Assembly (NCBI GenBank): GCA_028281925.1
Contig: JANQIX010000026.1
Location: 1 to 64,000, forward strand
Origin: Alphaproteobacteria bacterium
GTDB lineage: Bacteria; Pseudomonadota; Alphaproteobacteria; DSM-16000; Inquilinaceae
Direction of reading: 5' to 3'
DNA: 64,000 nt
Below are positions 1,008 to 4,031 of the stretch, in pieces; position 1 is the stretch's first letter, and each line of letters opens with the position of its first letter. The translations under genes were made by a program, and so were the position numbers. Below the pieces are notes generated by a model, which saw nothing but the letters and a program-made list of their open reading frames with translations, did not search any database and had not been told where the DNA came from.

Positions 1008-1331
1008 GTGAATGAATACGACCTAACGGATCAGGAGTGGTCGGCAATCCAGCCGGTGCTTCCCAACAAGCCGCGCGGGGTGCCGCGCGTCGACGACCGC
1101 AAGGTTCTGAACGGCATCTTCTTCATCTTGCGCAGCGGCACGGCCTGGCGGAACCTGCCAAAGGAATATGGCCCGTACACCACCTGCTATAACCGCTACG
1201 TCCGGTGGCGCAGGGCTGGCATCTGGGCCCGGATCATGGCAGCGATCGCAGAGGATGGCGACGAGGGCGCAGCGGGCGGTCGACCACGGGCCGGCGAGGC
1301 TGAGCGTCCGCGTGCCGGAGACCTGGTATAG
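1008..1331 (+). pseudogene. IS5-family transposase, 5-prime fragment
   Basis: The start MNEYDLTDQEWSAIQPVLP, followed by RSGTAWRNLPKEYGPYTTCYNRYVRW, is the N-terminal DUF4096 region of IS5-type transposases. An AAGGAG ribosome site precedes the ATG. Similarity stops near position 1255 after the IWARIMAAIAE region, and the rest of the frame is unrelated. The DDE catalytic domain is therefore missing. The broken end abuts a methylase remnant on the other strand, so this is a rearrangement scar and not a working insertion sequence. Confidence 0.8.
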
Positions 1332-1403: not shown

Positions 1404-2006
1404 TCACCGTTCATGCCACCCGATCCACTTCCGTTCCGCCGGTCGTCCGCCTCTCTTCGGCATCCTCGAAGCGCTCGCCCGTCGCACCGGCGTCGCATAC
1501 TTGCCGGTGAAGATCGCCCAGCGCCTGACGATGGTGTCACAGTATGCCAGGTCGTATTCGCGCAGTCGGGCGCAACGGCCAACCCGCTCGGCCGCAATGA
1601 TTGTCGTCCCTAAGCCGCCAATGAGGTCGAGAACGATGTCACCGCGCTTGGAGCAGTCGCGAATGGCGTCAGCGACCAGTTCGACCGGCTTGACCGTGGG
1701 ATGCATGGCCAACTCAGCACCTCTGGTCGTGCCGAAGCTGTTGGTATGCGGACCGCTGCCGATCTTGAACACGAAGACGAGCTCGTGCTTGGAGCAGTAG
1801 AAGGTTCCGATGCCGCCGTTGCTCTTGTTCGACACACAGAGGTTCTTGAGATCCGAAAAAACCCGCCTGCCCGCTGCCAGCAACTCGCTCATGTGCCGCC
1901 AGTCCAAGCAAACGAATGCGATTGCGCCATCCCCGCATGACTCGGCGGCAGTGCCAAGCGCCTGAAAACCCTGCGCGGTCTTACCGTGTTCGAGTGCTTC
2001 TCTCAA
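1404..2006 (-). pseudogene. DNA-modification methylase (N4/N6 type), degraded C-terminal half
   Basis: The translation contains FVCLDWRHM, NLCVSNKSNGGIGTFY, KHELVFVFK, MHPTVKPVELVADAI and IVRRWAIFTG. These are the ordered landmarks of the ParB-associated DNA methylases carried by phages and integrative elements. The upstream part with the DPPY catalytic motif is absent. About 20 residues seem deleted between the NSFGTT stretch and MHPTVKP. The usual D-PFGGSGTT SAM-binding motif reads DLIGGLGTT. It is most likely inactive and is evidence of an old mobile element. Confidence 0.7.
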
Positions 2007-2321
2007 GAATTGGCTTCAGAGCCGCATCGCTTCACGCACCATCCAGACCATCTCATCCCGGGACCAAACAGTCGGATGATCCCACGTTGAGCGGTCGGGA
2101 CAGCTGAAAGCGACGGGCGCCATCCCTGAGATTCCAGGATGCGAATCATAATCATTCGCGCTCGATAGCGCCAGTCGTTCCCCTCCCGCGACGTCCGGGT
2201 GGTGTCAGTTTGAGGCGTCCGATGTGTGACGCGCGATGTCCGCGGTCAAGGCGAACGGTCCCAGCGACCCTCTATGCGCTGTGATCGCGGTTGACAGAGA
2301 TCGCTGACCGGTGCTGATGTG
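2007..2321. other. Intergenic stretch without a recognisable gene
   Basis: This gap lies between the methylase remnant and the TPP riboswitch. No coding frame with family resemblance or a convincing ribosome site was seen on either strand. It probably carries the promoter of the riboswitch transcript, but no clear -35/-10 pair was recognised. Confidence 0.4.
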
Positions 2322-2411
2322 CGGGCAGCCGGGGTGTCCTGCGTCCGCCTATGCAGGGCTGAGATTACACCCGTCGAACCTGATCTGGGTCACGCCAGCG
2401 AAGGGAAGCCA
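2322..2411 (+). promoter_or_regulatory. TPP riboswitch (THI element)
   Basis: The conserved THI-box core is present in order: GGGGTG, then a variable stem (GTCCTGCG against TGCAGG), GGCTGAGATTACACCC, GAACCTGATCTGGGT and ACGCCAGCGAAGGGAAGCC. These match the pyrimidine-sensing and pyrophosphate-sensing helices of thiamine pyrophosphate aptamers. The 3-prime end carries GAAGGGAAG, which can serve as the ribosome site of the small ORF starting at 2416. Ligand binding would therefore be expected to hide the site and block translation, as in other Gram-negative THI elements (inference). It controls the symporter gene downstream. Confidence 0.95.
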
Positions 2412-2415
2412 TCGC

Positions 2416-2493
2416 ATGACCAGCCTTATGCGGCCTATCGGCCGCTCCTGCCGCCTCCGCCACGCCGCCACCGACGCCGACGCCCGCGTCTGA
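2416..2493 (+). CDS. 25-residue leader ORF coupled to the symporter
   Basis: A short frame (MTSLMRPIGRSCRLRH...) starts 5 to 9 bases after the purine-rich GAAGGGAAG at the riboswitch 3-prime end. It stops at a TGA whose last A is the first base of the symporter ATG (TGATG). The symporter ATG at 2493 has no convincing ribosome site of its own. The simplest reading is that the riboswitch gates translation of this leader and the symporter is translated by coupling. The peptide has no recognisable family. It may instead be a chance frame. Confidence 0.5.
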   Translation: MTSLMRPIGRSCRLRHAATDADARV

Positions 2494-4031
2494 TGGAAGC
2501 GCTCGCCAGCGCCCCGGTCCTCGTGACCGTGGCGGCGACGTCGGCCGCGTTCCTCGCGCTCGGCATCGCCATCGCCCGTCGGCATGGCGCCGCTCGTCTG
2601 ACAGCGGACGACTTCGTCACAGCCCGTGGCCAGATCGGCGCATCGACCGCCGCTGCTACCGTCCTCGCGTCGATGCTTGGCGGCTGGATCCTCTTCAGCC
2701 CGGCGGAATCCGCCGCCGTCGGCGGCATTGCCACGGTTGCCGGCTATGCGCTGGGGACCGCAGCGCCTCTCTTTGCCTATGCCCTGGTCGGCCGGCGCAT
2801 GCGCACGGTGATGCCGAATGGGCACGGGTTGACCGAGTTTGCCCACCGTCGCTATGGCGGTGTCATGTACGCCGTCACGCTGGGCGTGATGCTGGCGGTG
2901 CTGCTGATCTTCCTGACCGCGGGCTTGAGTGCGGTCGCGCAGATCGTCGGCACGCTGACCGGCACGCCGAGCCCGCTCGCCGCGGCGATCGTACTGGCCG
3001 CAGCACTGGGCTACACGCTTCTGTCGGGCTTGCGTGGCTCGATCCTGACGGACGCCGTGCAGATCGCCATCGTGCTGCCGCTGCTGGCCGCGCTCGTGGT
3101 CGTCGGCTTCCGGGAGGCCGGCGGGTTGGATGCGGTATCGGACGGGCTCGCGGCAGCAGCGCCGCACCTGCTCGACTGGACATACGGTCCCGGCGTCGAG
3201 ACGGGGATCGCGCTGGTCCTAGCCATCCTGCTGGCGGAGATCTTCAACCAGAGCTACTGGCAGCGCGTCTACGCGGCCAAGAGCGCCGGCGCCGTGGTGC
3301 GCGGGTTCCTGGTGGGTGCGCTGGTCGTGTTGCCGGTGATCGCGGTCATGGGCCTGTTCGGCCTTACGGCCGTCGCGCTCGGCCGGGCGGAGGACGCGCC
3401 GGTCGCCGCCTTCCTGCTGGTGCGCGAGGCGTTGCCGGAGGGCTTTGCCATCTTGGTCGTCGTTCTGGGCGTCGCGCTTGTCATCAGCTCGCTGGACAGT
3501 CTCTTGTCCGCCCTGTCGAGCCTGCTAGTGGTCGAACTGCCGCGGGCGCTGCCGGCGCTGAAGGAGAACCGGCGGTCGCTGGTGCTGGCGCGGGCCGGCA
3601 TGGTCGCCCTCGCAATCGGGCCAATGATCGGCGCAGCCCAGGGCTACAGCATCTTCTATCTGCTGCTGTTGGCCGACCTGATCTGTGCGGCGGCGGCCTT
3701 TCCGGTGTTCTTCGGCCTGTGGGCCCGGCGCTGGTCCGGCGGCCAGGCGGCACTGGCCTTCACCTGCGGGCTGGTCGCGGGCGGCCTGGTGTTCATCACG
3801 CCGAGCTTCGGCCCGGCCGGCCTGCTCTATCAACTGACCGGCGCCGACTGGGCGGAGGCGAGCCTCTTGAAGGCGTTCCTGATCGCGACCTTCGTGCCCA
3901 TCGCCGTCGGCCTGACGCTGCATGCCAGAGCCACTGTCGCGTTCGACTTCGCGCAGCTGCGCAAAGGGACGGATGCTAACCAGAGACACGGCCAAGAGGG
4001 AGGCGGCGCGGCCTTTCGCGGCAGTCCTTAG
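2493..4031 (+). CDS. Sodium:solute symporter, putative thiamine or thiamine-precursor transporter
   Basis: A 512-residue integral membrane protein with about 12 to 13 hydrophobic segments. It has the sodium:solute symporter layout, for example DDFVTARGQIGASTAAATVLASMLGGWILFSPAE near the N-terminus and SSLDSLLSALSS in the later helices. The frame is open upstream to 2319, inside the aptamer, so the ATG at 2493 is chosen; it overlaps the leader ORF stop. The upstream TPP riboswitch indicates import of thiamine or a biosynthetic precursor. THI-regulated members of this superfamily have been predicted as thiamine-related transporters, but the exact substrate cannot be read from the sequence. Confidence 0.85.
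   Translation: MEALASAPVLVTVAATSAAFLALGIAIARRHGAARLTADDFVTARGQIGASTAAATVLASMLGGWILFSPAESAAVGGIATVAGYALGTAAPLFAYALVGRRMRTVMPNGHGLTEFAHRRYGGVMYAVTLGVMLAVLLIFLTAGLSAVAQIVGTLTGTPSPLAAAIVLAAALGYTLLSGLRGSILTDAVQIAIVLPLLAALVVVGFREAGGLDAVSDGLAAAAPHLLDWTYGPGVETGIALVLAILLAEIFNQSYWQRVYAAKSAGAVVRGFLVGALVVLPVIAVMGLFGLTAVALGRAEDAPVAAFLLVREALPEGFAILVVVLGVALVISSLDSLLSALSSLLVVELPRALPALKENRRSLVLARAGMVALAIGPMIGAAQGYSIFYLLLLADLICAAAAFPVFFGLWARRWSGGQAALAFTCGLVAGGLVFITPSFGPAGLLYQLTGADWAEASLLKAFLIATFVPIAVGLTLHARATVAFDFAQLRKGTDANQRHGQEGGGAAFRGSP

Follow-up and report, generated by a model that had tools for sequence, protein, structure and literature searches.

Translation of the symporter gene at 2493..4031 (forward strand) is probably controlled by a TPP riboswitch through an intermediate: the riboswitch would gate a 25-codon leader ORF, and ribosomes completing that ORF would reinitiate at the TGATG in which its stop codon overlaps the start of the symporter gene. 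Coordinates refer to the window, the whole 64,000-nucleotide stretch of DNA that was analysed. On sequence and comparative evidence, we put the probability of this reading, a TPP-OFF translational riboswitch acting through a relay ORF by termination–reinitiation, at roughly two in three.

An Rfam cmscan of the window returned a single RNA family, TPP (RF00059), at 2320-2424 on the forward strand, with an E-value of 2.8e-8, the full model (1-105) covered and a score, 56.0 bits, only just above the gathering threshold of 54.3. By sequence and structure match above that score, the element is a TPP riboswitch, with the aptamer at 2320..2413 and the model match continuing to 2424. The sequence-only reading had called it textbook-complete, which is right for P2, P4, P5 and the conserved cores, all of which are present, but overstated for an element whose modelled P1 has two mismatches and whose score barely exceeds the threshold. 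The claim that the 3′ end of the aptamer bears the sole good ribosome site was borne out: the Shine–Dalgarno sequence (SD) AAGGGAAG (2401..2408, forward strand), identical in three genomes and separated from the leader ATG at 2416 by a spacer of 7 nt, pairs with the anti-SD at −5.6 kcal/mol, which is only moderate strength, compared with 0.0 kcal/mol before the symporter ATG (standard 16S). Its location can be stated more precisely, as AGG (2402-2404) forms the 3′ strand of helix P4 in the aptamer, its partner in the ligand-bound state, from the pairs of the Rfam alignment, being CCU of the 5′ strand (2379..2381, forward strand). Because the AGG lies within P4, TPP binding itself would hide the SD, and constrained folding predicts that SD-core accessibility falls from 0.42-0.49 to 0.19-0.22. 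We predict that the aptamer would bind TPP and that expression would change as a result.

Also predicted was an extension of P1 (UGUGC 2318-2322 with GCAUG 2414-2418) that would clamp the leader AUG, but it shows no covariation and the longer helix is partly broken in the homologues, and we do not rely on it. Upstream of the aptamer, TTGACA (2291..2296, forward strand) is kept in the three homologous loci amid diverged surrounding DNA; no full sigma-70 match emerged from a scan with the promoter consensus, and the motif is thus a tentative −35 element. The upstream DNA of the window is not common to the homologous loci in the aligned region. Near the riboswitch it holds a remnant at 1008-1331 (forward strand) that corresponds to the N-terminal region of a transposase of the IS5 type (DUF4096), and at 1404-2006 (reverse strand) a short DNA methylase ORF, also a remnant, matching mainly the C-terminal part of its family.

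The sequence 3′ of the aptamer, GCGAAGGGAAGCCATCGCATGACC..., contains the ATG at 2416, from which the frame stays open for 25 codons (MTSLMRPIGRSCRLRHAATDADARV; 2416..2493, forward strand). The TGA at 2491-2493 shares one nucleotide with the symporter ATG at 2493-2495, forming the TGATG (2491..2495, forward strand) that is the predicted termination–reinitiation site; start, length and overlap are exactly as first read from the DNA. The two ATGs lie 77 nt apart, and the leader served by the SD at 2401-2408 is in a different frame from the symporter. A TGATG or ATGA overlap at one locus is not very improbable by chance, the frame alone being right one time in three, and we consider the layout to be above chance because it is conserved in homologues, not because of the single overlap. 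The leader also contains a hairpin, GCGGCC-TATC-GGCCGC (2430..2445, forward strand), with a stem that is identical and a loop that varies in the homologues, and no T tract follows it. No intrinsic terminator was found in the window, and a terminator platform of the kind seen before thiV in Chloroflexi was rejected on that ground.

The symporter itself is a protein of 512 aa that matches the sodium:solute symporter family (Pfam SSF, PF00474; 6.4e-17) and, below its cut-off, TIGR00813. It is 31-34% identical to SAR11 homologues that themselves lie behind TPP aptamers, and SAR11 ThiV is a candidate HMP transporter (PMC11452348); we predict a ThiV-like protein for HMP/thiamine-precursor uptake and refer to the gene as thiV. 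Homologues align from the methionine at 2493, and no other ATG, GTG or TTG lies in the symporter frame between the aptamer SD and 2493, so the possibility that thiV starts elsewhere, at a codon served by a separate SD, was rejected for want of an in-frame candidate. Near thiV neither an anti-SD structure nor a terminator is visible; a conserved hairpin over the thiV start was likewise discarded, shuffled-sequence z-scores being near zero or positive at the thiV loci.

We propose that, at low TPP, the aptamer-embedded SD (AAGGG) would be free, a ribosome would initiate at ATG 2416, translate the 25 codons and terminate at the TGA at 2491-2493, and the terminating ribosome or its 30S subunit would reinitiate at the thiV ATG; reinitiation is proposed because the stop overlaps this ATG and the ATG has no SD. 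At high TPP, P4 would pair the AGG of the SD with CCU 2379-2381, leader initiation would stop and thiV translation would drop too, with a possible contribution from Rho-dependent loss of the untranslated message. The leader peptide would be dispensable, and start, open frame and stop/start overlap alone would matter. Leader translation, reinitiation and the part played by Rho are inferred steps.

The locus is also present in two genomes of the same family, G001 (L005/L027; 92-95% alike by different measures) and G004 (L006/L028; 88%), and no thiV homologues beyond these same three were found among 17 genomes of the family and order; the thiV loci were drawn in part from metagenome-assembled genomes. 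One record, L027 (JANQQD010000267.1), is labelled 'Anaerolineae bacterium' and bears the 92% thiV locus, the matching G001 being placed in the window's genus; either the label is wrong or the assembly is mixed. All three loci share the block AAGGGAAGCCATCGCATGAC without a single change, and SD, spacer, leader ATG, open frame and TGATG are all kept, with leaders of 23 codons in both homologues versus 25 here as the result of a single in-frame 6-nt indel. The thiV ATG, which had been described as lacking a ribosome site, has none in any of the three (duplex energy 0.0 in each), and the energy of the leader SD is likewise equal across them. The comparison of homologous loci thus favours the sequence-only reading: the same start codon is used, it has no SD of its own, and the leader start, open frame and TGATG are retained.

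Most changes in leader codons alter the amino acid (for the distant pairs, 11 of 13-14 changed codons are nonsynonymous), and they show no third-position bias. A conserved regulatory leader peptide was rejected, since codons change freely in the thiV leaders and the thiX leaders described below keep no peptide either; with the peptide not conserved, a peptide-independent relay by termination–reinitiation fits best. Simulation gave a chance of about 0.09 of keeping the ATG, the open frame and the TGATG under the observed substitutions, and the three loci, close as they are (88-95% alike) and statistically weak by themselves, lend moderate support to a layout kept without a kept peptide.

The strongest evidence that relays of this layout may be functional comes from thiX. 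The locus L233 is the thiX of a thiXY-type operon (names assigned by sequence resemblance) in a different alphaproteobacterial family, in which we recovered 23 thiX loci; the TPP-bearing ones form two groups, and the 14 loci scanned have Rfam TPP scores of 59-69 bits. In the six genomes of the fused group (L269, L271, L273, L274, L278, L279), the aptamer-proximal start runs in frame into ThiX. The split group of ten loci, nine of them distinct (L264, L266-L268, L275, L280-L283), has a separate leader of 15-23 codons, and every one of the nine distinct leaders ends in an exact 4-nt ATGA overlap with thiX. Nucleotide divergence among these leaders reaches ~50%, with start, frame and overlap all kept but the peptide not; the simulated probability of retaining the layout by chance is 0.003-0.013 for the most distant pairs, values that are not independent because the pairs share ancestry. 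The SDs of the thiX genes are mostly weak (−0.7 to −4.3, with one of −5.8), compared with −10 to −11 for most of the leaders. On the comparative side, therefore, the claim of indirect control via the leader stands, as homologues keep the layout and an unrelated gene in another family has the same one. The sister thiX genomes with a split leader or a fused N-terminal extension (L264-L283) form a natural series for the study of reinitiation.

For a wider view, 162 TPP loci were gathered, nearly all from Alphaproteobacteria. In 62 of ~156 mostly alphaproteobacterial elements, the SD of the aptamer serves a long ORF with nothing in between, and most of the others use a separate gene SD. The earlier generalization, that THI elements of Gram-negative bacteria mostly control the first structural gene directly, is thus only partly right; most surveyed elements drive the gene either directly or through an SD of its own. 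Eighty loci have a hand-curated gene start farther downstream, and in this indirect set the gene nearly always has an SD-like motif of its own, the exceptions being eight (six independent), with L233 and the three thiV loci among them. In 10 of these 80 loci the leader overlaps the start of the gene, against 3.3 expected by frame, a count inflated by the thiV trio counted thrice, by TTG leaders and by genes with a strong SD of their own. A general enrichment of relays across Alphaproteobacteria was rejected because of this inflation and because the thiB case in L222 is not conserved: in the L222 family (30 genomes), which served as a negative control, thiB has a strong SD of its own and leaders come and go, and the thiB overlap, judged from these sequences, is accidental. 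We propose the relay for two clades only, thiV and thiX, and it is not universal among TPP elements.

Another TPP riboswitch in the same genome (L001; G000:C113:59987-60088) precedes a TAT-signal TRAP-type substrate-binding-protein-like gene, beside which, on the opposite strand, is a DctQ-type small permease-like gene (both families assigned by eye). Downstream come an anti-aptamer arm, CGCGACACCCTTC, and an SD-like stretch hidden in the hairpin CCTTCCAC...GTGGAAGG; the locus possibly encodes a TRAP vitamer transporter under TPP control, with a platform of the classical type.

Elsewhere thiV is arranged otherwise. Control is direct in SAR11 and G113, where the thiV ATG comes immediately after the aptamer SD; in Chloroflexi relatives (~42% identity), aptamer and thiV are separated by a hairpin and a further SD of the AGGAGG type; and in Alcaligenaceae relatives the spacer is ~140 nt and there is no leader. 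The differing layouts across taxa suggest that the relay is a clade-specific arrangement of thiV. In the Chloroflexi-labelled loci L029, L033, L034, L036 and L042, the hairpin between aptamer and thiV contains GGCCGCTCC, which the string GGCCGCTCCT in the window's leader hairpin region resembles, possibly by chance in GC-rich DNA. Two Alcaligenaceae loci have back-to-back TPP riboswitches upstream of thiV, at 2432-2533 (−) and 2746-2850 (+) in L030 and at 2404-2505 (−) and 2696-2800 (+) in L032, which suggests divergent pairs of TPP-regulated units.

The main rival to the relay is initiation at a distance, in which the aptamer SD would recruit the 30S subunit and thiV would start directly at ATG 2493, the leader being untranslated. 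Its closest alphaproteobacterial precedent is the SAM-II riboswitch of Sinorhizobium (S.) meliloti metA, where the SD is required and, even when AUG1 is mutated, initiation takes place 74 nt further on (PMC9373788). Both systems have an aptamer-linked SD, a nearby AUG that looks unused in metA, and a start some 75 nt further on (77 nt from ATG 2416 to ATG 2493 here). In metA, however, the dispensable AUG1 is in frame with AUG2, an intrinsic terminator lies between the AUGs and no overlapping leader stop is described, whereas the ATGs of the thiV locus are out of frame; moreover, initiation at a distance needs neither an open frame nor an exact overlap, both of which persist in the three thiV loci and in nine distinct thiX leaders that can otherwise vary freely in sequence. 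We consider it unlikely. Leader translation might instead act only by shielding the nascent RNA from Rho, with thiV initiating on its own SD-less ATG. The leader, if untranslated, would be C-rich and unprotected, an intrinsic terminator is absent, and a uORF-controlling Mbox of Mycobacterium (M.) tuberculosis is reported to use Rho (PMC12810186); but shielding does not require the exact overlap, and Rho was judged not to account for the effect at ppe2 (PMC11260477), and we find this account distinctly improbable. Least credible is that the short leader frame arose by accident in GC-rich DNA and thiV starts independently at its SD-less ATG, for although a few per cent of such leaders overlap by chance (3.3 expected in 80) and the thiB leaders of another family are accidental, this would leave the TPP aptamer without a visible expression platform, there being no terminator and no anti-SD structure near thiV, and the layout is kept in homologues and convergent in thiX.

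The termination–reinitiation relay may be part of something more general. We would give even odds that the peptide-independent relay ORF is a distinct, selected TPP expression platform in Alphaproteobacteria, which evolved separately before thiV and thiX, is evolutionarily interchangeable with an in-frame N-terminal fusion, and has the riboswitch owning the only good ribosome site of leader and first gene. If so, a TPP element can reach its gene by way of an upstream frame that is indispensable, and control would be misjudged both by calling the first ORF after a riboswitch 'the regulated gene' and by fusing a reporter straight to the distant start. The uORF relay, described until now in M. 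tuberculosis, would also gain a further class of riboswitch and a second phylum.

Riboswitch-to-uORF relays are already known as a kind, and our search, which covered the open-access literature, turned up none described for TPP elements of bacteria. The TPP system of SAR11 thiV (PMC11452348) likewise has the aptamer before a ThiV symporter and an aptamer-embedded AAAGGGA serving as SD, but there the ATG follows a few nucleotides past the SD, control is direct and the leader is absent. The Mbox of M. tuberculosis pe20 resembles our system in that the riboswitch directly controls a small upstream ORF, rv1805A (PMC12810186); it differs in being of the Mg2+ class, in its highly conserved uORF peptide and in the involvement of Rho, and the abstract describes no overlap relay. 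A close parallel is the B12 riboswitch of M. tuberculosis ppe2, a gene without an SD that overlaps uPPE2 at an AUGA; its expression requires translation of the uORF, and reinitiation has been demonstrated (PMC11260477). In both systems the switch controls, or here would control, initiation on a short, SD-bearing uORF, which in our case is out of frame with the main gene, and an SD-less main gene overlaps the uORF stop, with termination–reinitiation as the relay, shown by experiment for ppe2 and proposed from sequence here. They differ in that ppe2 has a cobalamin class IIb variant, belongs to the Actinobacteria and uses AUGA, whereas the alphaproteobacterial loci combine a TPP aptamer, an SD inside P4, and a TGATG (thiV) or ATGA (thiX) overlap.
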